Source: a virus
DNA length: 64,000 nt
IMG/VR virus record: IMGVR_UViG_3300049846_000430
Coordinates: 49,401-113,400 of that record
Strand: one strand, 5' to 3'
Shown here one piece after another: positions 9,001 through 64,000 of this stretch (within the stretch, counting starts at the first letter, position 1; every line of letters starts with the position of its first letter). The notes under the pieces were generated by a model, which was given only the letters and a program-made list of their open reading frames with translations, was not told the origin of the DNA and made no database searches. The translations under genes were made by a program, and so were the position numbers.

Positions 9001-12000
9001 TTCAAAAAAATCTTAGATTCTCTTGGAGATGCTGTTTCTGTAGATAAAACAGATACCCATAAGTATAAGTTTGAATATAAAAATAAAGTTGGTTATGTAG
9101 AAACTCCTGACTTAGCAAGCTTCTTGAATGGGTATGAGCCATTCTATGTATATGACATGTACAAGGAAGGAACTGAAATACCCAAGAATGTTCTTAAGGA
9201 TATTGAAAAATCTGACTCACAACCAATTGATTATAAATCAAGACTTGAAGCATATGCTAGAAATTCTGATGTAGAAGATTTGTCTTTTGAAGAGGCTATA
9301 GTTAAAATGAATACTACTGTAGCTGATTTCAAACAATTCTTAAATACTAGATTGATGGATGAATTCAAAGAATTCAGTAAGACACTTGATGAAATTAAAG
9401 CAAAAAAAGGATTAAGTAAGTTTGTAACATTTGGTTTAACCAATGAAGATGGCAGAACAAATTCTGAAACTGCAAGGGCCGCTGCTCAGTTGAATCTTAC
9501 AACTGATGTTGAATACAATCTTATGCAGATATTCTTCAATGATTGGTTGAATACTAAAGCTTTAAATCAAATTCTTCTTGGTGATTCAGCAATGAGTTTG
9601 AAAGATGCTGTTGATGAGATTAAAAGAGCTAAGATGCAGAATGCCGCTGGTAAAAGTGCAGCTGCAACTATCATAGCTCCGGAGTATGGTATCAATCACA
9701 TCTTCCAACAGATGAGTTTGTTTACATTTACTGACACTGAGTTTGAAAAAATCTACAGTGGTGCCAATGCAAAAGGTGAAAGAGGTGATGCTCAGATGTA
9801 TCTTACACCTAAAGGACTTAGATATATTCTCTTTGGTCTTGGCAACTTAAATGAAGCTCAAGTAAAACTTCTTGATAAAATTGAAAGAGGTGATAAGATA
9901 ACAGCTGATGAATTCTTTGGTACAGTTGGAGAAGATGGTTTTAAAGATCAAGGTGCTGTATTTAACTCACTCAAGCTTGTATATGGTGATGGTAAAACAT
10001 ATCTGAAGATGTCTGCGGTAATTCTTACCAAAGAACTTACATCCAGAAAAGTGAATGGTCAGTGGGTAGCAAAAGAAACCAGAAAAGAACTTCATAATAT
10101 GCGTGTGAAGTTAGAGCAGTTTGAAGAAGAAAATCAGACTGTAACAATTGCTGGTGGAAGATCTGCTGTAAAAATGTTAAAGCAGAATGTACTTAGAGAT
10201 ACGGATATGTTCTCTGAAGGATTGCTATCTAAAGACAATGCAACTATTCTAGATACAAACTTTATGAGATTACAGCTGGTCAATCCTTCCAACAAAATTG
10301 TAATTACAGATCCAACTCAGATGAAAACTTTGATTACATCTGAACAAAGTGATAATGTTGAAGTACTTCTTCCTGGATCTGATAAAGTAACCACACTTGG
10401 TGCTATTCGTGAGAAATATAATGAAGCTATATCAAATAGATCTAAACTCAAGTTCATTAACAGAAGAAACTTGATATTTAACTTTGATATTGATGTTGCA
10501 ATGGATGAATTGCATAAGAGTGTTAAATCTGGTCAGATTACTGCTAACTTGTTCAGCTTTCTACAATATGCAACAGAGAGTTTAAAAGCATCACAGTCTT
10601 CATCTAACATTCTTGAATTCTTTAATCCAGAGAACCAAGACAGATATAATCTCAATAATCCTCTTACCATTACAAAGTTTGAACAGTTGTTTCTCAGATA
10701 CTTTAATAATGGTGTATTTAGTGAAAAGATTCCTGGTCATTCAGTTGCTTTGATGTCTGATGTTGGAGTTAAGATTTATAGAAGAGTCTTCTCTGTAGAA
10801 ACACTTGAGGATGGTACCATTGTTCCAGATAGGTTTGAAGTAATTAGGGAAAAGGTTTGGGAAGCCATGCCGGATAAACCTCCAGTTGTTTTTGATGTAA
10901 CTGATAATCCAACTCTGCAGGGTCTTGAAGAAGCTATTAAAGCTAGTGGTAAAAAAGGTGTTGTTATCATTGATAATCTAAGACATAATCTCAAAGAGTA
11001 CAATGAGAAAGGTAAATATACAAAAACAAGATATTCTGAAGCATTAATACCAGCTCACTTCAAAGATGTAATGACACATGTTGAGGATTCTGTTGATGAT
11101 CCTAAGAGTGCTGAAGAAATTACACAAGAATGGAAAGCATGGATTAATGAAGAAAGATGGTCACCAAAAGCAAAAGCTTACATTATCAGACAAAACATTG
11201 AAGACTTTGACCGTAATAGATCAAAGAAAGAATTTGCTAAAGCATTTGGTTATACTTATGAAGAGAATGAAAAAGGTAATGTTAAGTTTACTGCTAGAGA
11301 AAAGAGTAAGTATATGAATGAGATTCCGGATGCTGTAGCTAAAATGTTTGGTATCCGTATTCCTTCACAGGATAAACACTCTGCTGTAAATATTAAAGTA
11401 GTTGACTTCTTACCAGTATTCTATGGATCAACCGGTATATTCCCTCCACAACTCATTGAGATATCTGGAGCTGACTTTGACATTGATAAACTCTATATAC
11501 ACATCAAACAGTGGTTTATGGAGAATGGAGATTTTGTTGAGTACGGTACTGCAAAAAATGACAAAGATGGATATCAGCAATACATTAACTATGTAAACCA
11601 GGAAGTTTATAAAGGTGGTTCCGCATTTGCCGAGGCATTTGAGAAGTATATGAGTGATCAAGGTGTAACTGAAAGAAATCAATTAAGTATTGAGGATATC
11701 CTTGATGCAAGAGATGCTGGCTTTAATGCTGATGCAGTAGATGCTCTTATGATGCTTGGTCTTCCTGTAACACTTAAACAGTACAAAGCTTATAAGAAAA
11801 AGAATCAATCAGAGCCATATGAAGCTCCTTATAACAACCAAGTTTTAGATTATAAGTTTGCTCTACTTGGTAATGAGCATGTAACAAATACTCCTGGACG
11901 TAATGTTCCAATATCATATGAACCTGCTGATCTAGAACCTTTAAAAGAGGTTTGGGATTTTATTAAGGATGAACTTCCTGAACTTGCTGAATTGGTAAAA

Positions 12001-15000
12001 GAAGAAGGGGTTGATATTGATAATCTCTTTGGTAAACTTAAAGCTTGGACCAATAACAAAGAAGGTGCAAACTCAATTGGTGCTGTGGTACTTCCAAACA
12101 TTTACTTGAGTTTGATGAAAGAGTATGATATTTCAATTAGACGTGAGAAAGTAGGTAAGCTTGGTGAGACAATTCCTCAGATTACTCTTAATGGTTACAC
12201 ATTCAGACACTTTGGTAAAGATCCAGAAGATCCTCAAATAACTGGTAACTATGAAATTGTTGATGGTAAAGAAAATAAAAATGGTGCAAGAAGACAGTAT
12301 GTAATATCTGCTTTGATTACAGCAATGACAGATAACGCCAAAGAAAGACTTGCTGCTAAACTTGGTCTGAACAAAGACGCACTTGCTGTTGTTGCAAACC
12401 TTACTGCTTTGGGTGTTCCAATTAAAACTTCCATTCTTTTGATTAACAATCCAATCATTAAGGAAGAATATTTTAATGCTGTAAACAAAGAAGATCCTTA
12501 TGATCCAGGTATTAAATCTCTTATCAGAAGAAGACTTAAAAACTTAGATGAGGTATTTGGCCCAGATATTCCTTTGGTTCCTGTTACAGATGATCTTTTA
12601 AAAGAATCTATTATTAATGCTAGAGTTTTTAATGACTTTAGTCAATCAAAATCATTTAATGTTAATATACTTAAAGAGCTGAAAAAGGAAAATCTTTACA
12701 CACTTACTGATGCATCAATTGATAAATCAATACTTACTCAGTTCTATAATGCTCATAAACTTAAAACCTTTACCGGCAACATTGGAAATATTGTAAACTT
12801 AGTTTCTGATATTGGATCTTCTTTTGAAGATATTATAGGCAGAGAAGAGTCAATTAGAAAACTTGGTCTTGAGTTAAATGATGAAGATTTTGAAAATCTT
12901 GTTGATGATGATGATGCACCTGTACCTATAGATGTAAGAAAGTTGTTTAAGGGAGATACTTGGCAGGCTACTTATTACAAAATGTATAAGGAACTGACAG
13001 AGCAATTGCTTCCTACAGTATTCTTAAGTCAGACCAAAGCCTTTAAAAATATTTATGAAAAACTTAAGGCTGCTTTCTTGGGCGGTGATGATAGTAATTT
13101 CTTCATGACTCCAGAAAGACTTAATAAAATGAGTAAGGACTTCTTGTCTTATCTGACTATTAAGTCATATATGCAGGAACTTGGCAGATCAAATGGTATC
13201 AGAAAACAATCATTGGCTTCTCTTACTAATGAGCTTATATACCCACAAGCAAACTCAGATATTAACATCAACAAGATCATAAGTAATCTTAAAGCTAAGT
13301 ATGAAGCTGAGGGTAGAACTAATTATTTCTTGCAGGCTTTTGCTTACAATGACCCGGCTAGTAGTCCTAAAAACAATACAGGTCTTGATACAGTTATTGC
13401 ATCTACGTTTGCTAAACTTAGTGAAGCTCAGAAAATTAAAGTGCAAGATGGGTTTATTGATCTGTATGGTCCGGCTGAAACAAGGCTGGATGCATTGCAC
13501 ATCCTTCACTACATAATGGTAAAAGATGGTCTTCAGTTTGCTTATGGTACACTCCTAGATGCTATTACACCTTTTATACTTGACAAATACTTAAGTACAA
13601 TTAACAATACGCATAAGGCTTTTGAAACTGGTGTTGACACCAAAGCTTTTGAAACTGTATTTGGCATGGACTATGAAGATTTGATAAATGATTTCATCAT
13701 GAACTATATGGAATCAAACAAAAACAATTACCTGCTGAAGACAATAAAAAGTGTAGTTAATAAAAAGAACATACCAGTTTATAATCCTATTGTTAGTGAT
13801 GCTCAAATAACAGGTACTCTTACTTTAGGAGAAGTTGTATCTAACCCACAAAACTTTTATGTCTTTGGAGAAAACCAAAATGAAGAAGGTTATGTTGATC
13901 AGTTAGCTGTTAGGGGTCAGAGTAATACTTTTGGTCTTATTTTTAAAAAGGGTTTTGCTAGAAATAAAGAAAACTATTTTAAAGATAAAGAACTGGATGA
14001 ATTTGTTAAAATTTTTAGTGCTGGTATAGCATTTCTTAAAACTGTTGAAAAACCAATTCTATTTCCGGCAAGAATTATTGGTGCAAATGACAGAGAGTAT
14101 ATGCAGAAAAATACTCCTGAAATTTACAAGCATATCAAAAATACACTGATAGACAACTTTGATTACGATATTGATGGAGTTGAAAAAGTTGCAGGCACTG
14201 TTAGCAAAGCTGAGGCAGCAAAATCTCCTATAAGAATTGACAAGAGTGGTGCCGCAGAGAAATTATATATAGATTTGTATAATGGTATCTACCAAATTAA
14301 TATAGATGCTGAAGGTACCAAAATTCAAAGAAATGCTGTAGCAGGTCCTAAACAAAAAGAAATGAGAGAGGCAAATCAAAAGTATATACAAGATGCTGGT
14401 TTCAAAACAAGAACATTCATTAAAAAGGAAGGGGATAAAAAAGAATTTACCACAGAAATAATTTTACCTCCATACTTTAGAATTGAACATAAGAATCAGC
14501 TTGATGAAAGAACTTATGATTTTTATAAATTGGTTAAAGTCTATACATCAACAGGAATTGATACACAAAACTTGATATCAAAAGATCCAAACCGATTGCA
14601 CATTTTTGGAAATGCAGCTATGTATGTCAAAGTAAAAATGAAAGGTTCTAATCAACAGAATCCAATAGGGTTTATGTTTGATACTGTAAACTTTAGCAGA
14701 CCTGATTACTTTGACGTAAGAGAAAATGTTAAGAAAAAGAATCAAGAAGAAGGTGATGAAGATATTACGATTCCAGGAGATGGAGAAATAGATGAGGGTA
14801 ATGTAGATTTTAGCAGCATGCCTGGAGCAAGAGTTGATGAGAATGGAATAACTGTAAATGGTAAATCTGTTACAGTTAATGAAATGATTGCAGCAACTGC
14901 CGCAGTAATTACTTCTACAGAAGATGTTACTGAATCTGATTCCAATGTAGAATCAGAAGTTGCGGGTCCACCTGTTAAAGCTGGAACTCTTACTAGTTTG

Positions 15001-15213
15001 CTTGATGATGATGATGAAGCATCTGATTTGTTTGATTTCTGGACAGAGAATATTGAAGATAATAAAGAAGCAATAGCAAAACTGAAAGCTAATGGGATTA
15101 AAGGAAAGAATGATGCGGATCCAGAAATTCAAGACTTCTTTAATGCAAGACGTAATAATAACTATAAGAGTGATCAAGATTTTCTAGATTACATTAAAAG
15201 TTGTATCTTATAA
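1..15213 (+). CDS. Giant virion protein: zincin-like protease and virion RNA polymerase (5' end outside window)
   Basis: The frame is open from base 1, so the gene starts left of the window; at least 5070 residues are present. A zincin motif HEAFH (bases 6205-6219) is followed by a Glu-rich helix (EQEFIEEYLADKF), as in metallopeptidases of phage polyvalent proteins. At 11473-11490 DFDIDK closes a segment resembling the second double-psi beta-barrel of multisubunit RNA polymerases, preceded by RIPSQDKHS, IKVVDFLP and FPPQLIEISGA. DxDxD is the Mg-binding signature of the single-chain virion polymerase of crAss-like phages, which is injected to transcribe early genes. The first 400 residues are rich in Gly/Ala and hydrophobic stretches, fitting a protein that must leave the capsid. 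Acidic linkers ending in SSMPG occur at 2860 and 14812. Polymerase and protease are recognised by motif; ejection and self-processing are inferred. Confidence 0.85.
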   Translation, partial: NFDRYYAHPKFEELGWQPYANNEEYYNANSSTWDDSVRMWGQFSGLFGTGFVSGYRSIADLFDGDDYLSTADLDSATEFSDAMRIGMSSREGFMAGINNFALNSAYTFGIIGSIAAEELALALMASTGVGAIPAAARTGANVTRAGRAIVNFFDVGKALNATRQMLKGLNQADRARDFYNTMRSGGKFVGDFFLPETMAAIRSMNTTQNGVQNLSNLSKAARGFGGFYRDLRGINLAMSESKLEAGMVYNDKFADISANLNEKNGGTGLTPTDVAKAHDVAAKSSFATLWWNAPLIYLSNKIVLGTALGGMNKTLGRVFDEKLTGFGKRLIRTKPLTDASGKISRDVFEDAGEGMFGGLLPSMKRIKGYTVGGSLKAAGHGAARYFAANLTEGAQELAQEAIAVGTKDYYTQLFEDPAAAGYDVFKTALSSAISSQMNAQGFETFMSGFMMGGVVQGPQKLLFQGLPNAMQYTFNREAYDKYKTAKNDYIQNLVKTHNEAWNTMADDPTAMFDPTKLNFLVQKQVASEMKQSAYVDDVFGFIDAKDFGKFNQMYTIFSNGTANQFKDQLQGFQSLTDEELNQAFPGFKADIKSGKFRERIDTTLNQIDETEKAYNDAQNKFQNPFDSRKFKKGTKEFIDEALKERAFEHAKYLYMFTQDGFKRAVERAESIYSEMASEPVISKIAANDLSVLMDIDSINNELAVLLKEASIEATTPEEEKIAADKTERMMHLTEIKKVLTDPGNLNSNGILDRRKINKLYKPFQNYVNFLAKSKNDFVNKDAVVNALKKISDYNALKERAKVYDKAIEYLNNPERLTEMVNRTRAIFEDLFRNNKTMFEKNIKKHVKNLEANEFLNKLVKIGVYPNADQVVEFLKTGDVNVLKEFFSEDGVVDVMNDPKRFLQIAGLVRSYNEITGKEEVKEETEEEPEEEAAEPGAKQKSFEDTLDDLDIDTSSMPGVKPKPAKETVVETNDPSQSPYGKKILEEVYNKYRAEQLAIGNTYLPYNEWAKTEKTQTVIAALQALKVAWAKTVTKESLAKRGTDVSTPQLAEAAIKFVIKQDVGFSQWLQSKKDEPSVRKVLDEAGLTFDALAPVAPGKNEGKDSVVKDKKNTKWHKKGPGVNILKITSSDNEGNKTTYYQLVDNNGDGLSEAILKAAGVSINGTYSKAKAAEEAQKKILDAMPDTTPFQFDGVMVRFGATVTDNKGKEFIVLGTPSKVAKGGKLFLLPKEKQTLKGVKEREKASIKVSEGEFNGFYTVEDLKFSEPVDKNVSKLTVVDLLKSYPRNNRGEERAEAQKRFDIIMNAVTAEEFENDIEFVVRRNEGAGSETGPYRAGSKEPNPQIIKTTETYNIGIRIGNPALQQRLDAMLEEKGFVPSDSADGIIGFMPNNSYKLLDKNGKQISILSLDPENFDQYFGGRGTLQDIKTAYATQQLLVNAISELIGEASFAVVKPSELKDKVTFSFQSLYKQDALPISLDQLNDYYGTEDGKGYTVDGKNVIIYDNKRVRTEKGYSYSTTVVSNLKPGKRLSDLSDKIEDELKASGKWEKATDPVAGLGRYVIVIRQPNGELTLAQLKQNKIDKEEVYGFIKELVQRAQDTVDNNIENIDDLPRNALGVITNTKDARAKNLDYNYKWNEEFNNKFYLAEMPGIDVEMKVTAWGRIEISFYDKKNKESLTAAPLKIFPELFAKALADPQELLDKIQSLLDSDPTLKKQKISVQPQNFRASFPESRDAQVIIDNTKTQLDPRVRFDYKIIVTGDSSQVQALANISTPITPEDITAAQGPVSEDTLEHIAKKLNTPGSTLSKYEQEIYNINQSRIEKIRKDLAGKSSLDTSEDTYDGINQMSDDEFNSYADDEFMMLPLDIKNQIAAKILKTGVASLSARERQVMNSDAGSMINGLVSKLVSEAVNTPSEVAPVTEETFTQGNEIEQIKAEIASLKLQIDAREELLMKESSNPKESFTKINNDSELKALKKRRNDLNNKLIANKILPAAPLTPYDGETIQQFVDWATNNLPDFISIADINTLRGNLMGKGVRVGAFVLSLADIAGGINVQGTLYTGASSPFRYHEAFHAVFRMLLTDEQIKKYLALGKKELLAKYKAEGKSYQAEMEKFRNTAPMYREMTPERLEQEFIEEYLADKFEEFKKSPAKTQTAPEIKSLFQRIIEWIKSIFKRFTKNELNSLYENIDSGKYRTTAVQDNMFTNSLVKGITVEANKLIPIETYEDERGNIGYKYMDPAAADGLIANIAAMYISREDKAIAASKNGLINRGEILDETIIDFMVMYNPEAEHNSTLDRSLWAPLFEKFNALKDYTEFVKQGVIERLALLDVSAEEGAYDFEQFEQEAGLRNVSDYKRGVEQIGGFESISKELRRYIGSTTITNADEFGNTELTPGESLIVPVDFNEAYNGILKAVKNTTNPLDFFTKMYFFGQTNRQTEAVVRRLFQDIGVTDEQILNDDLPASVKNPLLFQRVLKGFESFRLDYIFIHTNPKDGKTYIYSAANRDDTSAQIDRWSAAYDIKFQNMVNNIKTWRETKRILARVEKYFNPAEAFETLSDRRLQIISRYLSRNLYELTGIKLSAGYIEFSIASGIINKTRYQNALLRANQKSEALNYDDIKQFAIQIEAAYNDAIKNRGYTSIFSDTAGVGMPARLRRMAFGNAPFDETIGNSVFKNPNGDLVYAHQAATYHLKAITDLNDVETLERLQESDPFLFNNILLNSPAFKALAAEDRLRVLRVAGSKKSALDKTDEGNYAETGGINVNDEATTYGDSSPRQFILNLINSYTYNYNHTTGKNDTIIAIDPITGEEKETAIAPSLIRVIEASNTGDMTGLPVIQTITTDDNGETVLKDETIDMFYDEVKREYERIRREGKEETRTKDLLEGYNAKDGVRVDKNADSKDDQSRAYKFTKTGTLLKEFEGTAGDKSKIKDPTMPEETAQRLVEGTQSIIVRRAKAASTIGLTRKGASGSATVTTKDKKGNDVNTGFTIINRGQVIVTEKNFKKILDSLGDAVSVDKTDTHKYKFEYKNKVGYVETPDLASFLNGYEPFYVYDMYKEGTEIPKNVLKDIEKSDSQPIDYKSRLEAYARNSDVEDLSFEEAIVKMNTTVADFKQFLNTRLMDEFKEFSKTLDEIKAKKGLSKFVTFGLTNEDGRTNSETARAAAQLNLTTDVEYNLMQIFFNDWLNTKALNQILLGDSAMSLKDAVDEIKRAKMQNAAGKSAAATIIAPEYGINHIFQQMSLFTFTDTEFEKIYSGANAKGERGDAQMYLTPKGLRYILFGLGNLNEAQVKLLDKIERGDKITADEFFGTVGEDGFKDQGAVFNSLKLVYGDGKTYLKMSAVILTKELTSRKVNGQWVAKETRKELHNMRVKLEQFEEENQTVTIAGGRSAVKMLKQNVLRDTDMFSEGLLSKDNATILDTNFMRLQLVNPSNKIVITDPTQMKTLITSEQSDNVEVLLPGSDKVTTLGAIREKYNEAISNRSKLKFINRRNLIFNFDIDVAMDELHKSVKSGQITANLFSFLQYATESLKASQSSSNILEFFNPENQDRYNLNNPLTITKFEQLFLRYFNNGVFSEKIPGHSVALMSDVGVKIYRRVFSVETLEDGTIVPDRFEVIREKVWEAMPDKPPVVFDVTDNPTLQGLEEAIKASGKKGVVIIDNLRHNLKEYNEKGKYTKTRYSEALIPAHFKDVMTHVEDSVDDPKSAEEITQEWKAWINEERWSPKAKAYIIRQNIEDFDRNRSKKEFAKAFGYTYEENEKGNVKFTAREKSKYMNEIPDAVAKMFGIRIPSQDKHSAVNIKVVDFLPVFYGSTGIFPPQLIEISGADFDIDKLYIHIKQWFMENGDFVEYGTAKNDKDGYQQYINYVNQEVYKGGSAFAEAFEKYMSDQGVTERNQLSIEDILDARDAGFNADAVDALMMLGLPVTLKQYKAYKKKNQSEPYEAPYNNQVLDYKFALLGNEHVTNTPGRNVPISYEPADLEPLKEVWDFIKDELPELAELVKEEGVDIDNLFGKLKAWTNNKEGANSIGAVVLPNIYLSLMKEYDISIRREKVGKLGETIPQITLNGYTFRHFGKDPEDPQITGNYEIVDGKENKNGARRQYVISALITAMTDNAKERLAAKLGLNKDALAVVANLTALGVPIKTSILLINNPIIKEEYFNAVNKEDPYDPGIKSLIRRRLKNLDEVFGPDIPLVPVTDDLLKESIINARVFNDFSQSKSFNVNILKELKKENLYTLTDASIDKSILTQFYNAHKLKTFTGNIGNIVNLVSDIGSSFEDIIGREESIRKLGLELNDEDFENLVDDDDAPVPIDVRKLFKGDTWQATYYKMYKELTEQLLPTVFLSQTKAFKNIYEKLKAAFLGGDDSNFFMTPERLNKMSKDFLSYLTIKSYMQELGRSNGIRKQSLASLTNELIYPQANSDININKIISNLKAKYEAEGRTNYFLQAFAYNDPASSPKNNTGLDTVIASTFAKLSEAQKIKVQDGFIDLYGPAETRLDALHILHYIMVKDGLQFAYGTLLDAITPFILDKYLSTINNTHKAFETGVDTKAFETVFGMDYEDLINDFIMNYMESNKNNYLLKTIKSVVNKKNIPVYNPIVSDAQITGTLTLGEVVSNPQNFYVFGENQNEEGYVDQLAVRGQSNTFGLIFKKGFARNKENYFKDKELDEFVKIFSAGIAFLKTVEKPILFPARIIGANDREYMQKNTPEIYKHIKNTLIDNFDYDIDGVEKVAGTVSKAEAAKSPIRIDKSGAAEKLYIDLYNGIYQINIDAEGTKIQRNAVAGPKQKEMREANQKYIQDAGFKTRTFIKKEGDKKEFTTEIILPPYFRIEHKNQLDERTYDFYKLVKVYTSTGIDTQNLISKDPNRLHIFGNAAMYVKVKMKGSNQQNPIGFMFDTVNFSRPDYFDVRENVKKKNQEEGDEDITIPGDGEIDEGNVDFSSMPGARVDENGITVNGKSVTVNEMIAATAAVITSTEDVTESDSNVESEVAGPPVKAGTLTSLLDDDDEASDLFDFWTENIEDNKEAIAKLKANGIKGKNDADPEIQDFFNARRNNNYKSDQDFLDYIKSCIL

Positions 15214-15216
15214 TAT

Positions 15217-18200
15217 ATGGCGGCAAGATGTCACAATAGAGCAACCCCTGAGTATAAAGCTTTACTTCAGGAGTTTAAAACAAACATTGCAACAGACAAT
15301 GTTATAACCAGTTGGCAAGATCTTAATAATACAAATGAGTTTCCTACTGTATCACAAGCACAAGAGTTTTTAAAGCAGTATAAAACAAGTGAGTCTTTAA
15401 GAAAAAGAGAGTTTGCTGAAGCACTTCTTTCTAACTTATCAAGATTGGGATATGCTAAAGCTGGTAAAAATGGATATTATGTTACAAACAGCAATCAACC
15501 AGGCGGCATATTTGATGAGAATGTTTTAAACTCTAATAGAAACAAAATCATCAACTACTTGATGATGAATAATATTCCTGTTGACTCAGTAAGCTTTTCT
15601 GACACAACCAAAGGAGAAACATACTTCATATCTATTGATGATGCAAGTCTTTCACAAAGAGATATATTACCTAAAAGAAGAGGGTTTGATGAACCAAAGA
15701 CAGTTAAGATTTTAAATCATCTCAATAATCTTTTTCCAGAACTTAATATTCAAATTGCTACAATCCAAGAAGCAAGAAACTATTATGATTCTTTGGATCC
15801 TGCAATGAAGGCTAATGTAAAGTTTGAAGATGTCAAATCTTTTTATGTAAGAGGTAAGGTTTATTTGGTAAGAGGAAGAGTAACAGATAACACAGCCATA
15901 GAAGAAGTACTTCACCCATTTGTTGATGCACTCTTTATTCAGAACAGAGCCTTGTTTGATAACTTACTTAAAGAAGCAAGAACAAACTTTCCAGAATTAA
16001 ACAGAGAGATTAACAGAGTTTATTCTGAGATGAATGGTTTTACTCAAGAAGAAAGAGATCTGGAACTTGTAACTCAATCTCTTACTAGACATTTTGCAGA
16101 TGAGTATGAGAAGGCACCTACAAAAACATTCATGGATAGAATCCGTGAGTTTCTTGAATGGTTTAAAACTGTTATTAATGATTTTCATAAGTATCTGACT
16201 GGTGTAACAATCCGTAGAGCAGATCAAATAGTATCAGCCACCACTCCAATTAAACCAGGTGTTGCAGAACTATTTGAATCTAATCCTAAATTAGCTACTT
16301 CTGTATATGAAGCTTTAGGATTTACTGAAAAAAAATATGCAGATAAACTAAAAGGAATTGCACAAAGAAGAAGTTTAGCTACTAAAGAGGATCTTGAAAA
16401 GTCTCAGCTTATTAAAGATCTGGTAGTAAATGAGTCTCAACCTAATGAATTAAAACCAAATAAATCTGATAAAAATCTAGCTGCTATAATGCTTTATGGT
16501 GAGAGATATGATGATTTATCAGATACAAGAACATCTGAAGAAGATTTTGAAAATTCTTCAGATTATAAAAAGTCTCAGTCTGAGTTATTAGCTTACAGAA
16601 TATTAAACAATTTAATGTTTGATGTTGAAGAATTAGCTTATTATGAAGACATCATCAAACAATATCCGGAATATGCTTCAACATTATCTACCAATGAAAA
16701 TCCTGTAAAAGATTTTTTTGAAAATGATATATTTGAACAAGCCGAAAAAGAAAAGTTTGAAATAACTTCAAAGCAAAAACAACAAGCTCAACAACTATAT
16801 TCCCAATATCTTGATACTATATTTCCTGATAGTAAAGTAAAGGATATTGTTTATCATGGTACAAATTCTAAATTTGATAAATTTGTAATACCTGAAAGAA
16901 CTTTTTCAGAATATGATGATGAATTAAAAAAAATGGTTCAGCTAAAAGGTAAAGGGGCTGCTTATTTTACAGATAAAAAATCTTTAGCAGAACAATCTGG
17001 AAAGAGTAAAAAAGCAGAAAATGTTTTATCTGCTGTTATAAATTTAAAAAATCCAAAAGAAACAACTAGTCAAGTTGGAGTAGATGATAATATTATAAAT
17101 CTAAGAAAGAGTTTTGATGGGTATGTTTATACTAATATAAAAGCAAACTATATAGTGCAAGCTGTATTTGAACCAGAACAAATCCACATACTAGGTAATC
17201 AAGAAGACATAGAAGGATTTAAAGAGTTTGCATCTAAGGAAATACAGGTTACTCCTACATTAGCAGTTGGAGAAATTAAACCGATAGCTAAACTTACTGA
17301 TATTGCAAAGCTTCTGAATACCAGCATGTTTAAGTTTGATCTTCAAACTGAAGATAGTTTAAGAGTTAGATATGCTTTGAGTGATAGAAAACAAAAGCTG
17401 GTTGACAAAGCATTAGACTCATCTAACGAGGTTCAGAAGAATGTAATTAATAGATTGTTTGGTATAGCCAGGACAAGGGATGAAAGTATTGATTCTCTCT
17501 CTGCAAACATATACAGCCCTTATGAAGATTCAAGTATTGTTGTTCTAAACAAAGCTGATCACACATATATTGATATAACTACAGGTGATATATATACCTC
17601 TGTAACTACAGCAATCAAAGGAAAGTTAAAGAATGAAGAGGATGTGCAATTAAATGTTACACTTGGTAATGACTTTGATTTTATCATGGATGGTATTGTG
17701 TCAAACATGACACTGAAAGATATCCTTGAGTCTGGAGAGATAAAGATTCTAAATGAAGAGCAGGTTGAAAGAGCTTTTAATGATCTTCAAGAAAAAATTC
17801 AAGACCTTAGATCTGATGGTTCAGTTGCAATATCTCAAGTAGTATTGTTTGATCAAGCCACTAAGATAGCTGGTACTGCTGACCTTGTACTCATTACTCC
17901 TCAAGGTAAACTTAAAATTCTTGACTTAAAAACAAGTAAGAGTTGGTATGCCACCATGAGAGAAGAATATGATAAGGAATGGAATCTAGATGATGATAGT
18001 GTTTTAAAATCCAGAGGTATTGCTGATAAACTTTCTACAAGACAGCAACACAACCTGCAGGTTAATCTCTATAGGAGAATGGCTGAGAACATGGGTTATG
18101 ATGTAGCTACAGATGAATATGCAACATCAACCTATCATATCCATGTAGACATTACCGGTAAAGGTAAAGAACAGAAGTTTGAGGGAACATTTGAAGTTGA

Positions 18201-21200
18201 TGGTTGGGTGCCGCATCCCCCTAGTCAGAACTCTGTTTATGTAGATAAACTAATTCCAGTTGATTACATGAATAGAGATCCAGAAATGACTGCTGCAAGA
18301 CTTGGTTTAGATTCTCCAGAAGATTTTGATCCTGATAACTTTTTAGATCCTGAAGAACAGTTGCCTGAAGATCTTACAGATGAAAATGACTATACTGAAT
18401 TCAACACTATCTTTAATGCTCTAAATCAATACAAGACCGGTCTTTTAAATAGAAGACAAGCAATTGAAAGAATAAAGAGTGGTATCTTTATGGATAGAAG
18501 AACTGAACAGATTATTGAAAATATAGATAATACTGTTGGTGCTATTATGGTTGCAATGAGTGAGGGTGGTGCATTAGTATCTTCCACATATACTGATCTT
18601 CTCAGAGATGCAATCAAAGAAGTAGATCAGTTTACAGAGTACATGCTAGACCCGTTAAACTTTGACAAGAATGAGTATATCAACTATGCACTCAACTTTG
18701 ACAGGTTCTTGGTAACATTCAACGGCCTTACTGAGATACAAAAATCAGATGCTGTAAATGCCACACAAGCAAAACTTCTTCTTACTCTTGAGACAAAACT
18801 AAGAAGTCTTGGCGGAACAAAAACAAAGACTGGTATCATTGATGCAGCTATTATGAACTATGTAAAGGAGACTGTTAGAAATACAAGTAGCAGAAACTTT
18901 ACAGAAGCTGAGCTTGATGAGTTAATGAGAACAGCAAAAGATATAGGCATCTTAGATCTTGGAACCAGAGATTTAGCTACATCTACAGATACACTTCTTG
19001 CTATAATGGATAAGATCTATAAGGCCAAGAAACAAGAGCTTTATGATAAGATTGATGCTAGAAATGAAGAGATAATCAATGCTGCAAATAAACTTTTAAA
19101 ACTTTCACCAACATCAAATAGAAATGAGATTTATGATTTTATGTTGGAGTTTGATGATCAAGGAGGATTCACTGGCAGATATGTAAAAGCTTTAGGTAAG
19201 CAGTATTATGATAAGATTGATAAACTAAGAGCTGAACTTTTTGATGAAGAAGGTAACTGGAAAGAATACAGAGAGATTGATGATTTAAGAACAGCCAAGA
19301 AAGAAGACATTGATTATAATAAAGCTTTATATAAAGCTAAGCAAGCTTATACAGATTTCTGGAGAGCAGAAACAATTGGGACAAACGATAACCCAATTGA
19401 TGGGGAATATCATGGATATACTTCTGAATTTAAAGAAGCTAGGGCAAAGCATGAGGTTTTTGTTGCTGAAGGAAAACATGGTTACTGGGTTAGAAAGAGA
19501 GGTATTTCAGACAAAGCATATCTCAACTATAAACTTAAATACTTTGATACATTTGAAACAAAGTTTGCTGTTAAAAAAGATGGTGTCTTTACTGGTAAGG
19601 TTACAGATGGTACTATCCAAGTTCCTAAAGTAAAATACAGATTTGCCAGAGAGATTAGCTCTAAGGGTGAAGATATGCGTAATGCAAAGTATACAGCAAT
19701 CATGAATCCTACTGATGCTTTAGGTGAAGCAAGAAAGGAATTCTATGAAGTGTATGTTAAAAACTTTGAGAATGATCTTCTTAATAAACTTCCAACTGGT
19801 GTAAGAGATCAGATGCTTGGGAGAGTTCCTCTTGTGCAGTCTAATTTGGTTAACAGTCTTAAGGAAAAAGGAAACCTGTTTACAAAACTCTGGAGTAAAA
19901 CAACTAGATCTGTAAGAAACTTAACAACAGAAACTTCTCATATGAGAAGAGTTGTTGTTGATGAGACAGGTCAGTTTGTTGATACGCTTCCCATATTCTA
20001 TGTAGGTAATACTAGAGATGATCAGGCACTTGAAATTCTTGAAGCAAAGCTGGACCAGCTTAACAAAGAAAGAAAGATGGGTGCTGTCAATGCCATTGAG
20101 TATAAGAAGCAAAGCATGGAGTTAAATGGGAAGATTACTGATATCAAAAATAAACCTGCAACTAATGAGATAAGCAGAGATATGGGAGATAGTCTTCTTA
20201 AGTTTAGTGCTATGGCTGAGCATTATGAAACCATGGGTGCAATTGAAGACACCATGAATGCTTTTCTATATGTCATTGAAAATAGACAGTATGAATCTGC
20301 AGAAGATAATGTTACCAGAATAGCTAGATACGGAAAAGAAAACATAAAGGTATTTCAAAAGAAAGGTAGTACTGAGGCCAATGTCATAACAAGAGCTAAG
20401 AAATTTATGAGTATGGTCTATTATGATAGTGATGAAATAACAAAAGGTAAGTGGGATAAAATATCTGATTTCATTATCAATACATCATCCATGACATATG
20501 TAGCCTTTAACCCTTTTGGTAATATAAATAACTATGTGATGGGTAGACTTAACAATAACATTGAATTGTTAGGTCAAAGATTTTTTACAGCTAAGTCCGG
20601 ATTAAGAGCAACACAAGAGTTTAATAAAAGAGCTTTACCTGATGTAGCTAAAAGATTTGGAATGCATGGTTACAAGCTTGGTATGGGAGGTCAATATGAC
20701 CCAACTAAACCAATGAGTAAATATGAAGGTTTTGTTGACATGTTTAGAATGATGGATACAAAGTCTGATATCCGTGAGACAAGAGGAAGTACTGCTCAGA
20801 AAAGTTGGTTTGAAAGTTTCTTTATTGAAAAACTTGGTTATGGTCTTCAGGATGCTGCAGAATACAACGTGCAGACAAAGGTTGGTATGGCCATGGTTAT
20901 GGATACCATTTTAAAGAACAAGACAACTGGTGAAACACTTAGTCTTTATGATGCTGCTGAATTTGATTCAGTAACACATAAACTTAAATTCAAAGATGGA
21001 TTTGATACTATAGTTAAGAAAAACGGTGTTGAAGTAGCTTTTGATGACAAGTTTAGATATGATCTTAGAAACAGAATCCGTGAGGTAAACAAACAGATTC
21101 ATGGTAACTATGCAAGAGAAGACAGGATGGTTATTCAAGCTAACGCACTTGGTAGACTTGCTGCACAATTTCACAAATGGGTGGCACCAGCTATTAGAGC

Positions 21201-21891
21201 AAGGTTTGGAAGAGAATACTTTGACGAAAACTTAGGATGGATGGAAGGAAGATACAAGTCCTTCTGGCAGTTCATGGGTTACTTCTTTAGAAATCTTGAT
21301 AAAGTAGAAATGACCGGTAAAATCATTGGTCCTAAAATGAAGGAAGGTTTTCTTAAAGATTATGGTTATAAAGGAGACGGTTCTCAGGATGATGCAAAAG
21401 CTGAGAACAAACTTTATAATATGTACAGAACTCTTGGTGAATTAGGTATTATCATTTCAATTATGGTGGTAAGAGAAATACTTGGAGGAATGTTATCAGG
21501 TGATGATGATGATAATGAAACTATAAAAAGACTTGAAAATGCTATTCTATTCCAGGCAGACAGATCTGTAAAAGAAATGAAGACTTTTATACCTGTTATT
21601 GGATTTACAGATATGTATCAAATGGCAAAAAGTCCTGTTGCTTCAACAAGAACTCTTGCGGAATGGGGACAAGCACTTGGTAGTACTATGCTTACCGGAT
21701 ATAATGGTGTAAAGTATATGGCAACAGATAATCCAGAGTACTGGGAAGGTAATAAAGATATTGTTTACCAAAGAAAACCAGATAAAGGAAATCTTAAGAT
21801 GGCAAAAGAATGGAAAGATGCTATTCCAATTTTGTATACCTTTCAGAGATGGGCTAGCTATGATACTGTATCAGACTTCTACATCAAATAA
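15217..21891 (+). CDS. Giant polyvalent virion protein: decayed zincin, ADP-ribosyltransferase-like and PD-(D/E)XK domains
   Basis: 2224 residues, starting 3 bp after the stop of the RNA polymerase gene, so co-transcribed. Residues 229-233 read EEVLH inside a zincin-like segment (first His of HExxH lost, His233 kept). Residues 546-670 look like the ART domain of polyvalent proteins: YHGT, GKGAAYFTD, and near the end QIHILGNQEDIEGF. Residues 889-906 (DLVLITP, then ILDLKTS) have the D-x13-DxK spacing of PD-(D/E)XK nucleases of the RecB/Cas4 type. The C-terminal half is long, charged and helical, ending with one hydrophobic segment (IIISIMVV, near 21450) and an acidic DDDDNE. By position this is a virion cargo protein delivered with the polymerase; the domains are read by eye and their activity is inferred. 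Confidence 0.8.
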   Translation: MAARCHNRATPEYKALLQEFKTNIATDNVITSWQDLNNTNEFPTVSQAQEFLKQYKTSESLRKREFAEALLSNLSRLGYAKAGKNGYYVTNSNQPGGIFDENVLNSNRNKIINYLMMNNIPVDSVSFSDTTKGETYFISIDDASLSQRDILPKRRGFDEPKTVKILNHLNNLFPELNIQIATIQEARNYYDSLDPAMKANVKFEDVKSFYVRGKVYLVRGRVTDNTAIEEVLHPFVDALFIQNRALFDNLLKEARTNFPELNREINRVYSEMNGFTQEERDLELVTQSLTRHFADEYEKAPTKTFMDRIREFLEWFKTVINDFHKYLTGVTIRRADQIVSATTPIKPGVAELFESNPKLATSVYEALGFTEKKYADKLKGIAQRRSLATKEDLEKSQLIKDLVVNESQPNELKPNKSDKNLAAIMLYGERYDDLSDTRTSEEDFENSSDYKKSQSELLAYRILNNLMFDVEELAYYEDIIKQYPEYASTLSTNENPVKDFFENDIFEQAEKEKFEITSKQKQQAQQLYSQYLDTIFPDSKVKDIVYHGTNSKFDKFVIPERTFSEYDDELKKMVQLKGKGAAYFTDKKSLAEQSGKSKKAENVLSAVINLKNPKETTSQVGVDDNIINLRKSFDGYVYTNIKANYIVQAVFEPEQIHILGNQEDIEGFKEFASKEIQVTPTLAVGEIKPIAKLTDIAKLLNTSMFKFDLQTEDSLRVRYALSDRKQKLVDKALDSSNEVQKNVINRLFGIARTRDESIDSLSANIYSPYEDSSIVVLNKADHTYIDITTGDIYTSVTTAIKGKLKNEEDVQLNVTLGNDFDFIMDGIVSNMTLKDILESGEIKILNEEQVERAFNDLQEKIQDLRSDGSVAISQVVLFDQATKIAGTADLVLITPQGKLKILDLKTSKSWYATMREEYDKEWNLDDDSVLKSRGIADKLSTRQQHNLQVNLYRRMAENMGYDVATDEYATSTYHIHVDITGKGKEQKFEGTFEVDGWVPHPPSQNSVYVDKLIPVDYMNRDPEMTAARLGLDSPEDFDPDNFLDPEEQLPEDLTDENDYTEFNTIFNALNQYKTGLLNRRQAIERIKSGIFMDRRTEQIIENIDNTVGAIMVAMSEGGALVSSTYTDLLRDAIKEVDQFTEYMLDPLNFDKNEYINYALNFDRFLVTFNGLTEIQKSDAVNATQAKLLLTLETKLRSLGGTKTKTGIIDAAIMNYVKETVRNTSSRNFTEAELDELMRTAKDIGILDLGTRDLATSTDTLLAIMDKIYKAKKQELYDKIDARNEEIINAANKLLKLSPTSNRNEIYDFMLEFDDQGGFTGRYVKALGKQYYDKIDKLRAELFDEEGNWKEYREIDDLRTAKKEDIDYNKALYKAKQAYTDFWRAETIGTNDNPIDGEYHGYTSEFKEARAKHEVFVAEGKHGYWVRKRGISDKAYLNYKLKYFDTFETKFAVKKDGVFTGKVTDGTIQVPKVKYRFAREISSKGEDMRNAKYTAIMNPTDALGEARKEFYEVYVKNFENDLLNKLPTGVRDQMLGRVPLVQSNLVNSLKEKGNLFTKLWSKTTRSVRNLTTETSHMRRVVVDETGQFVDTLPIFYVGNTRDDQALEILEAKLDQLNKERKMGAVNAIEYKKQSMELNGKITDIKNKPATNEISRDMGDSLLKFSAMAEHYETMGAIEDTMNAFLYVIENRQYESAEDNVTRIARYGKENIKVFQKKGSTEANVITRAKKFMSMVYYDSDEITKGKWDKISDFIINTSSMTYVAFNPFGNINNYVMGRLNNNIELLGQRFFTAKSGLRATQEFNKRALPDVAKRFGMHGYKLGMGGQYDPTKPMSKYEGFVDMFRMMDTKSDIRETRGSTAQKSWFESFFIEKLGYGLQDAAEYNVQTKVGMAMVMDTILKNKTTGETLSLYDAAEFDSVTHKLKFKDGFDTIVKKNGVEVAFDDKFRYDLRNRIREVNKQIHGNYAREDRMVIQANALGRLAAQFHKWVAPAIRARFGREYFDENLGWMEGRYKSFWQFMGYFFRNLDKVEMTGKIIGPKMKEGFLKDYGYKGDGSQDDAKAENKLYNMYRTLGELGIIISIMVVREILGGMLSGDDDDNETIKRLENAILFQADRSVKEMKTFIPVIGFTDMYQMAKSPVASTRTLAEWGQALGSTMLTGYNGVKYMATDNPEYWEGNKDIVYQRKPDKGNLKMAKEWKDAIPILYTFQRWASYDTVSDFYIK

Positions 21892-60151: not shown

Positions 60152-60311
60152 AGATTCCATTTGCAAGATAGATTAAGGTGGTGAGAAATGTAATGAGAAC
60201 CATAAAGAGATGCACATATGCAGGTCCTGGTCCATCATTAATTAACAGATGAGTGGATACAATAAAGCACACAAGTGATAATGTACCCATGATGAATGAA
60301 AGTGTTTTCAT
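60126..60311 (-). CDS. Small two-TM protein
   Basis: 61 residues from ATG 60311 (the frame extends upstream to 60410 but without support). IMGTLSLVCFIVSTHLLI and LFMVLITFLTTLIYLANGI. Last protein gene before the large non-coding region. Confidence 0.6.
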   Translation of the reverse strand: MKTLSFIMGTLSLVCFIVSTHLLINDGPGPAYVHLFMVLITFLTTLIYLANGIYEIFQSKR

Positions 60312-61403
60312 ATATTTAGTTTGATTAGGTTTCAGAATTAAAAGGGCTACCTTGATCATCTTAGGTTCCTCCCTTTTGTAGATTTGACGTACACATAGCA
60401 CTGCATACACTGACCTTTTAAATAAATAATACCATTGTTACTTTATTGCTCTGTTCACAATGATAGAAGACTTACCATTTCCCTTACTTTGTCAAATCAA
60501 GTTTTTCAGGAATACTCTATTCTTCTGCTTTTGTCTTACCCCTCTGCACTCAGTTGTTATGACGTAACAGGTTCGTCTAAATGGTCTCCGAAGTCCAAAT
60601 AACAACTGCTCACCCTTGGGAGCTGATTAATCAGTGTTCTCTACACTCAATGATGAAAAGAGTGATGGGAATTGAACCCATATTAATCAGGTGGTTTCAC
60701 ATCTTACATTTGCATTACCACATGCTTATTCTAGCGGTTTATTTCACCCGCCAAAATCTTCAATGTAAAAAGTCTTTATATCCACGTGAGAATGGTGCAT
60801 TAATAATGGGAGAGATTTGTGTTGTAGGTACTCTCCCGGTGACCTGCTGACTAGGCTTTCCTTTTGGCTCTTACATCCCAAAGTCATAAGGGAACGGCAC
60901 ATCTTAGTTTGTTTCCATAAATTTTGGTGGCTAACCGGATTCAAGGGATTTACATTTCCAAAGCCATAAGGAAAACACCACTGTGAAAAAAAACTGGTGT
61001 AGGTGGACGTTTTCATCTCCTAATTGACCAGATAGAGAAATAAAGGCTGAGTGTTGACCTTCATTCTGATAATTTTGTAACCTTTCGGTCACTTACACAC
61101 ACTCTGGATTACTCCAAAGTATATCAGATAGCGAGTAGACTAACTACCATGTACTTTCCTGCTTATATATGCTTCCTTTTCAACCAAGTGTCTTGCGGAC
61201 CAAAGAGGATGCCTCCTCACCTTAGATTTACTCATTCTACATCACATTCTCATCCTTGCGGGACTTACTGTGCCCTCATATTACAGAGGGATAACGCTAT
61301 TTTCAGCTGGAAAGATGGTTGGCTTTTGCTCAATTTTTTAATTGTTTAAGTAAACAATGCCAAGATCCAGGATGTGCAACCATGCATCTATCATGCTTCC
61401 TTT

Positions 61404-61492
61404 TGAGAAGTTTAGATAGTACACCCCAGTGTAGATTACCAGTCTACGTTGCTTTGTGATACTGTTACCGCACCACTTGCAATGGTCTCAAC
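61404..61492 (-). ncRNA. tRNA-like element with GGU anticodon inside the large RNA
   Basis: Within the large structured region: GTAGA-CTGGTAA-TCTAC is a perfect anticodon arm (GGT, Thr), preceded by a D-stem TTGC/GCAA with a 26-nt loop holding GTGGT/ATCAC. TTGAGA/TCTCAA can close an acceptor stem at the right distance, but the T arm is not canonical. Likely a diverged tRNA or a mimic. Confidence 0.35.
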
Positions 61493-61925
61493 CCTTGAGT
61501 TTTTGGTAAAACTCTTGAGTCAGTACCTACAGATTCCCTTATTGTGCTTTCACACTCAAATCCCTTGGCAGGGATTCAACACTCAGATGATAATCCTCTG
61601 TGTTGATTGTCTGCATGCTTACATGGATTAGGTTTCCCTAACGCAAACTCACCTTGTTCAAGTGGTTCACTTTAATCACCATTACTGGTTTTATCCTAAC
61701 GACCATAAACAGCCGTGTCTGTTAGTTCAGAGCAAGCTCCTTAACGCATACACCGTGGATATTTTACAATCCTGTAGGTAGACAAGTATGCTTAATGGTC
61801 TTTAAGGGTAATAGACCAAACCCTGTTCATTATGTACTCAGTTGAACTCTGGCCAGTAACTTACTGGATAGGATGCATTCACTAGATTAGAGTGAGAACA
61901 ATGCCCAAACAAACTCACTTGGAAA

Positions 61926-61956
61926 GTGTACCCTGATTTCTCAGGGATACACTTTA
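61926..61956 (-). other. Long hairpin after the 61967 gene
   Basis: AAGTGTA and CCCTGA pair with TACACTT and TCAGGG (13 bp, one bulged base, 4-nt loop). No U run on the - strand, so more likely a processing or boundary element between the mRNA and the large RNA. Confidence 0.6.
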
Positions 61957-61966
61957 GAAGATATCC

Positions 61967-62350
61967 TCAGTAGAATATCTTATATCTTTTGGGATCTTCA
62001 TCCACTGGACCTGTAGCATCCTCAAGTGGAGGAATAGGAGTGATATCTAGATACCAGGTATCCAGACTACGTTCATGAGAGCACTCAAGCCACATACCAT
62101 TCTCTAAGAGAACTTTGTCAGCAATGAGGTCATGCTTGATTACCTTGAGGGCAACAGAAGCATAACTTTCAGGTCTAGTGAATTCATAACCAGCAGGTGG
62201 TTTAGGAAAGAAAGGACTTTCCTTACCAACTCTGGTAACAAATGATTCACGCTCTGTGATCATGCCTTTAGCAAGCTTAGACACGTACACAAACAACTCT
62301 GGTCTCTGAGCAAGTACCACCTGCTCAAGAAGGTTTTGAAAATTTTCCAT
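61967..62350 (-). CDS. Unknown protein, duplicate pair member 1
   Basis: 127 residues. NLLEQVVLAQRPELFVYVSK, then FPKPPAGYEFTRPESYASVA and VIKHDLIADKVLLENGMWLE. Clearly homologous to the next upstream gene along its length. Preceded by repeat hairpin R1. No family recognised. Confidence 0.75.
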   Translation of the reverse strand: MENFQNLLEQVVLAQRPELFVYVSKLAKGMITERESFVTRVGKESPFFPKPPAGYEFTRPESYASVALKVIKHDLIADKVLLENGMWLECSHERSLDTWYLDITPIPPLEDATGPVDEDPKRYKIFY

Positions 62351-62414: not shown

Positions 62415-62783
62415 TTAGAAGATGTCTTCTTCTACAAGAACCTTTTTGGGTTCTTCAATAGGTTCAAGCTCATGAATCCATGAAGACTCACGATCACTGT
62501 AGTTCTTAGCTTCACGCCAAACACCATCAATAACCAAGACTTGATTTGTGATCTTGTCATGTTTGATAACGGCAGCTTTGATAGTAGCATAAGACTCAGG
62601 GTTCTTGAACTTGTAACCATCTGGAGCTTGAGGAAACAAAGAAGAGTCTTTGAATACTCTAATGAAAACATGGTCCATGTCTTGGATCATGTTCTTGCTA
62701 AGCTTCTGAGCATAGATGAATAGTTCAGGATTCTGTGCGAGCACAACTTGCTCAAGCACAGATTGAAATGTTGTGTTTTCCAT
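62415..62783 (-). CDS. Unknown protein, duplicate pair member 2
   Basis: 122 residues. SVLEQVVLAQNPELFIYAQK, then FPQAPDGYKFKNPESYATIK and VIKHDKITNQVLVIDGVWRE; about half identical to its neighbour. C-terminus differs and is acidic (VLVEEDIF). A recent tandem duplication together with its leader hairpin (R2). Confidence 0.75.
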   Translation of the reverse strand: MENTTFQSVLEQVVLAQNPELFIYAQKLSKNMIQDMDHVFIRVFKDSSLFPQAPDGYKFKNPESYATIKAAVIKHDKITNQVLVIDGVWREAKNYSDRESSWIHELEPIEEPKKVLVEEDIF

Positions 62784-63198: not shown

Positions 63199-63464
63199 AT
63201 ATTAGCTATATAAAATTATTATAGCTTGTGTAACAAAAGAGAAAAGAGAATATGCTTGAATGTGTGTGAGTATGTATACCCACCCATAAATACATCCTTG
63301 CATATGCCCTTGCAGTACCCCTGCAGTAACTATATACAGCAGTTTGAATAGACAAGTGTGTAGAGACCGCTACACTTTAATCCCTGGACTGTTAGGATCT
63401 TGTTAAAGAGAAGGACTGACTACAGCTCAGTGGCTATAATCAGTCCTTGAAAGGTTTCTGCAGA
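63199..63464. other. Non-coding stretch
   Basis: AT-rich half (63199-63290) followed by a mixed half with CCTTGCAGTACCCCTGCAG-type short repeats (TGCAGTA twice near 63310-63330). No frame looks coding and no strong hairpin was identified. Confidence 0.5.
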
Positions 63465-63854
63465 TTACTCTGCAGATTTGGCCTTCTTGGCCTTGGGCTC
63501 CGGAGGAGTGATGGAGTCTTCAAAGACTTCATCAGCCTCCACCCAGAGCATGCCGGTGGGCTTACCCTCCTTGTCTTTGACAGGAGCGGTAGAGAACCGG
63601 AAGCCTGGGATAGGAGTGCCAGGACCTTTAGCAAGGAGCTTGCTTGCAAGCCTTTTAAAGTCCTGGTGGTCCTCCCGCACAGGTAGACCTGTTTCAGCGT
63701 CTACCAGACACAGGATCCCGAAGGTGACCTGTTTCTGAGTGCGGGTTTTGAAGGCCATGCCTTCAATGGAGCATGCCACTGTTTCCAGTGGTGAGTCAGT
63801 CACAATAATCATAGATTTTGTGATCTTGCGGAAATAAACTTGTTTGTTTTGCAT
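63465..63854 (-). CDS. Unknown protein of higher GC
   Basis: 129 residues from ATG 63854 (ATG 63881 adds nine codons and is possible). MQNKQVYFRKITKSMIIVTD, then VTFGILCLVDAETGLPVRED and GFRFSTAPVKDKEGKPTGML; Lys/Ala/Pro tail ending KKAKSAE. GC is about 57% in the 63481-63540 line, against roughly one third in most of the window, and codons such as GCC, CTC and CTG are common. Function unknown; signs of recent acquisition. Bases 63882-64000 hold G-rich non-coding sequence. Confidence 0.7.
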   Translation of the reverse strand: MQNKQVYFRKITKSMIIVTDSPLETVACSIEGMAFKTRTQKQVTFGILCLVDAETGLPVREDHQDFKRLASKLLAKGPGTPIPGFRFSTAPVKDKEGKPTGMLWVEADEVFEDSITPPEPKAKKAKSAE

Positions 63855-64000
63855 GATATATGTAATTAAAGGGTTATTCATGTATGGGGTGCCAACTGGC
63901 TAAAAAGTAGGTGGGGAGCGGAATTTGGGGACCCCTTAAGAACCACACACATAAAATGAAAAATATGGTAGGAAAAATTTTTATCGGTTCCGGGAGTGGA

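Follow-up and report, generated by a model that had tools for sequence, protein, structure and literature searches.

The zone at 60421–61966 (∼1.5 kb) of the window, by which the whole 64,000-nt stretch of viral DNA analysed here is meant, carries no protein gene, as the earlier note had stated: the longest open reading frame (ORF) on its minus strand spans 90 residues and none of six ORFs in the zone gave a PHROG match at E < 0.1. The zone is non-coding RNA of the minus strand, the features of which are listed in Table 1. Directly upstream lie two similar-looking genes of unassigned family (61967–62350 and 62415–62783, minus strand). The GAAA-capped hairpin at this border may mark where the RNA starts or is processed; a promoter and terminator scan of the zone gave nothing above chance. 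The nearest tRNAs share the strand of the zone RNA at a distance of ∼6 kb, and a search of the 3' part of the zone for a full tRNA found only a hairpin resembling a T-arm. In L125 (G034:C1:112000–117886), at least six repeated tRNA-Leu-like elements are interleaved with small ORFs (2050–4000, minus strand); the acceptor, D- and T-arms of these elements are intact and the anticodon/variable regions are irregular and very long (88–123 nt).

Relatives sought through a neighbouring 127-residue protein were not found, and blastn of the whole zone against GenBank phages gave no match. A structural protein of the window phage is closest to Puniceispirillum phage HMO-2011 (60%). That the phage is crAss-like is not shown, its DNA polymerase matching many phage groups. 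Elsewhere in the window, two giant ORFs on the plus strand (115–15213, 5032 residues, and 15217–21891, 2224 residues) matched nothing but DUF7831 and, below threshold, a polyvalent-protein ADP-ribosyltransferase, and at 63250–63900, near the contig end, the GC content rises sharply to 49%, with very strong folding (z about −9.6, minus strand) and a 138-residue ORF.

Folding energy alone does not distinguish the zone, the z-scores of 200-nt segments (minimum free energy) being mostly ordinary, and exact 9-mer complements are mildly enriched (14 against 7 in shuffled sequences, three of 100 shuffles being as high). Taken singly, the sequence shows no striking structure, and the case presented here therefore rests on homology and covariation.

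Table 1. Features of the zone RNA, in window coordinates.
Feature	Position	Strand	Evidence and remarks
GAAA-capped hairpin	61923..61955	-	Sequence; just past the stop codon of the upstream gene; no U-tract behind it
Module C (5' flank of GOLLD)	61797..61871	-	96% identical to L234; hairpin varies compensatorily in relatives
GOLLD-like domain (5' region and conserved 3' region)	61045..61796	-	RF02032 on 3' half; six homologues aligned over whole length
Closing helix of GOLLD 5' region (helix 1)	61743..61793	-	Compensatory change in L199; G-U variant in L162
GOLLD conserved 3' region (model 1-416 of 416)	61044..61429	-	cmscan 132 bits, E 3.6e-36
Linker between GOLLD and module A	60805..61043	-	60998-61027 (30 nt) also present, unchanged, in L168; two similar hairpins
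Module A, extended form (3' module)	about 60531..60804	-	Model R1, 30.8 bits, E 6.5e-6
Inserted arm of module A, closed by CTGATTAAT/ATTAATCAG (helix 2)	60623..60690	-	Shared with 17 other loci; compensatory variants in several
tRNA T-arm-like hairpin ATGGGUUCAAUUCCCAU in inserted arm	60665..60681	-	Weak tmRNA-model match, E 0.012; also in L208
Variable arm of module A on stem CAGTTGTTAT/ATAACAACTG	60551..60608	-	Sequence; stem conserved, arm hypervariable in relatives

About half of the zone is taken up by a GOLLD-like domain, the limits of which were set from the C–A junction in loci lacking GOLLD and from C–GOLLD–A junctions. An Rfam search at the gathering threshold returned nothing in the zone and GOLLD appears once E-values are used: the cmscan of the minus strand that the earlier note had proposed scores 132 bits against RF02032, short of the gathering cut-off of 150, with an E-value below the 1e-5 cmsearch threshold used for retrieval in PMC12286853; a second search placed the same match at 5.2e-38. 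Since the Rfam cut-off is missed, we file the domain as GOLLD-like rather than as a member of the Rfam family. The conserved 3' region is wholly collinear with the stems of the model, and many of its pairs have changed on both sides. Judged by sequence, the domain is a divergent relative of GOLLD. RF02032 scores among its relatives range from 65 to 134 bits, those in virus records including 88.8 bits (G004/G014), 72.6 (G015) and 65 (G048), and the GOLLD of G021 was recognized through collinear blastn. A strict DNA pattern for the GOLLD core found no match, and blastn of the GOLLD part against GenBank phages gave only short matches at chance level. The earlier note had suggested a member of GOLLD or ROOL or else a new class; the GOLLD assignment stands in this divergent form and ROOL falls away, while 60531–61043 and 61797–61871 are new, belonging to modules present in no Rfam family.

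Seven sequences of ∼750 nt (the window, L224, L162, L088, L089, L124 and L123) were aligned with MAFFT, not by hand. Of 78 predicted pairs, 50 have changed on both sides, which supports the fold. The less conserved 5' region (61430–61796) also aligns and its stems covary, and the 3' end, GTCA-ACACTCAGCC, is near-constant in all but L123. Both long-range helices named by the earlier note are real. In helix 1, which lies within one or two bases of where it had been placed, AAGCATAC (61786–61793) pairs with GTATGC(G)TT (61743–61751), and pairing is kept in relatives, the window combination AAGCATAC/GTATGC becoming AAGTATAC/GTATAC in L199 and AAGTATAC/GTATGC in L162. Helix 2, one base from its proposed position, joins 60682–60690 to 60623–60631 and varies compensatorily among the 17 other loci that share it. 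The 8-nt complement proposed as a pseudoknot, ACCTACAG (61772–61779, likewise shifted by one base) with CTGTAGGT (61525–61532), is not supported: it is lost in L088 and L089, one pair is lost in L224 and the zone has no more exact 8-mer complements than chance would give (33, against 26.6 in shuffles, 23 of 100 shuffles being as high).

GOLLD and ROOL form RNA-only cages, and ROOL is a large structured phage RNA of unclear function (PMC12286853). GOLLD, the cages of which are hollow, has two parts, a 5' region of ∼420 nt that is less conserved and, following it, a conserved 3' region of ∼410 nt (RF02032; Kretsch et al., 2025, PMC12286853). The window domain shares this two-part anatomy and the phage location, and contains the full 3' region with the conserved UCAAAAG, AGCAAAAG, GUAAUAUG and GCAA loops and the ACUCAGCC end. 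It differs in its lower score, in being embedded between modules C and A and in having a linker without a tRNA. The known GOLLD env-38 assembles into a cage, and a closed 14-mer is the assembly that would be expected of a family member. None of the Rfam models for ROOL, HEARO, OLE or group I/II introns matched 60300–62100, even at E = 10.

Past the GOLLD end the window contains ∼500 nt of further structured sequence, the last part of which is homologous to the terminal sequence of contig G034. Within the linker, the hairpins at 60955–60975 (TTCCTTATGGCTTTGGAA) and 60875–60895 (TTCCCTTATGACTTTGGGA), both on the minus strand, are similar to each other. The 3' module, module A, is 78% identical to that of L208 over 209 nt. 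An IMG/VR search with CAAGGGTGAGCAGTTG found at least 120 stretches, and among those listed most have ACTGAGTGCAGAGG within the following 200 nt. The layout of the module, TTAATGCACC..CTCAC-TTCCCAAGG-GTGAG-CAGTTGTAAT-arm-ATTACAACTGAGTGCAGAGGG, is that of a three-way junction with conserved, nearly invariant loops, covarying stems and hypervariable arms. In an alignment of 62 short-form units with the arm trimmed, 94.9% of cells are paired and 11 of 24 pairs have changed on both sides, a count reached in none of 500 shuffles. The outer stem occurs as UA, AU, GC, CG and UG, and such G-U variants in the covarying stems fit an RNA. The extended form in the window carries an extra multi-helix arm within the CTCAC/GTGAG hairpin, as do the 17 other loci, where compensatory variants, helix 2 included, comprise GTGG/CCAC to GTAG/CTAC and CTGATTAA/TTAATCAG.

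Hypervariable arms on an invariant scaffold, together with the T-arm-like hairpin in the arms of the window and of L208, might suggest that the arms bind or decoy host factors, such as tRNA-cutting or RNA-sensing defences, and that the whole chain would act as a counter-defence RNA. We consider this rather unlikely: most arms have no tRNA-like feature and the argument proceeds by inference throughout, with no partner known.

Word counts on oriented loci revealed three further modules, B, C and D. In more than 100 IMG/VR phage contigs, modules C, A, B and D turn up again, all on one strand and within long gaps that carry no gene; these gaps have a median length of about 1.7 kb, as measured with ORFs of at least 110 residues, so that small genes may be missed. 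Opposite-strand matches were absent for A, B3 and D and few for the short B5 and C words, and the downstream gene is on the same strand as the modules in 86 of 89 cases. The C core occurs in exactly 65 IMG/VR stretches, 49 of which provided enough sequence to be scored in an independent scan seeded with C; module A lies downstream on the same strand in 30 of these 49 loci and on the opposite strand in none. These results bear on the reading of the zone as an ordinary divergent GOLLD flanked by incidental, unrelated intergenic DNA. In the nearest relatives (L088, L089, L123 and L124) GOLLD is indeed followed by a gene within roughly 100 nt and has no intact module A, from which it follows that A is not essential to GOLLD. 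However, many contigs have C and A in this order on a single strand, the two modules covary and are also present where GOLLD is lacking, and with the C-seeded scan likewise against it we give this reading little credence.

The distance between C and A falls into two main classes, about 70–370 and 880–1110 nt, with few loci outside them: it is ∼100 nt where the interval is empty, as in L234, where C is joined straight to A, and ∼900 nt where GOLLD lies in between. GOLLD stands between C and A in L224, L162, L300 and L272, and by sequence in L199, and follows C in L261, L302 and L268. As the long-spacing class carries GOLLD between C and A, GOLLD occupies a slot there. What fills a second slot, behind GOLLD, varies between related contigs: module A begins there in L224 and L377, module B in L268 and a Pistol ribozyme in L261 (3451–3518) and L302 (2044–2111), where the ribozyme starts ∼5 nt behind the GOLLD 3' end. 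Hatchet ribozymes occur in the chains of L208, L133 and L288, and a twister-P1 below threshold immediately precedes an A unit in L208; 20 further loci that were sampled contained none, so ribozymes are occasional members of the chains. None of the three is present in the window and its module A matches none of them or any other ribozyme model, the ribozymes of the scanned relatives lying beside A units rather than on them.

Such neighbours, the position taken by Pistol and the compact junction of A with its nearly invariant loops raise the question of whether A may itself be an undescribed self-cleaving ribozyme or a processing signal setting the 3' end of the preceding RNA. Against this, A also directly follows C without GOLLD, B can fill the same slot and the module A of the window lies ∼240 nt beyond the GOLLD end, and we think it improbable that A acts in this way.

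Modules are exchanged between otherwise dissimilar phages. Between the window and L224, similarity in 9 kb is confined to 753 nt of GOLLD (96.3% identity) and a 33-nt piece of module A. L153 and L230 have, besides the A-end repeat, only 240 and 142 nt in common (>99%). In L230 the head of one L153 unit and the arm of the next meet at the shared core, the outcome expected if recombination had taken place at that point. The units at L153:8236–8873 and L230:1823–2178 appear to be recombinant, with head and arm more than 99% identical and no similarity outside. Arms of module A also recur in contigs with different heads. The palindromic stems, the tandem copies and this swapping of arms and heads could be read as the work of DNA elements that happen to lie beside GOLLD, either attC-like recombination sites formed by hairpins or small MITE-like mobile elements, but the strict strand bias relative to downstream genes, the G-U variants in covarying stems and the self-cleaving ribozymes within the same chains make this improbable.

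Module A is absent from Rfam and, at the sensitivity of blastn, from 50,697 GenBank phages and from PLSDB, and its core had a single match in 84,980 GTDB genomes. In contigs longer than 77 kb it is usually accompanied by the DNA polymerase family of the window phage. A literature search, with most subscription papers outside its scope, found no paper containing the core sequence and no description of such modules.

The reading that we favour, and regard as probable, is that the zone gives rise to one long structured RNA of the minus strand, probably co-transcribed with the neighbouring minus-strand genes, in which module C, the GOLLD-like domain, the linker and an extended module A with variable arms follow one another. 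In this RNA, C, GOLLD, the linker and A would be separately folding, exchangeable domains in a chain expressed during infection. By analogy with env-38, the GOLLD part may self-assemble into a cage, and the flanking modules with their changing arms might fix the ends of the cage subunits or present changeable binding sites. Recombination at the nearly invariant cores could account for the spread of the modules.

With GOLLD flanked by swapped modules, a cage-forming RNA seems to be an exchangeable component within a longer modular one. Our confidence is evenly divided on the wider proposal that modular non-coding RNAs of this class are present in environmental phages. They would be built from A, B, C, D, GOLLD and self-cleaving ribozymes on one strand, for which some order is preferred, would bear hypervariable arms and would be reshuffled by recombination at invariant cores; GOLLD cages would be one cargo domain, and A may be a new ribozyme or an element that forms 3' ends. 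The modules are widespread in viral metagenomes and point to domain shuffling in RNA, much as in proteins. If GOLLD is one slot in such a shuffled chain, then its true ends, its processing by the ribozymes behind it and its partners, through the variable arms, become testable.
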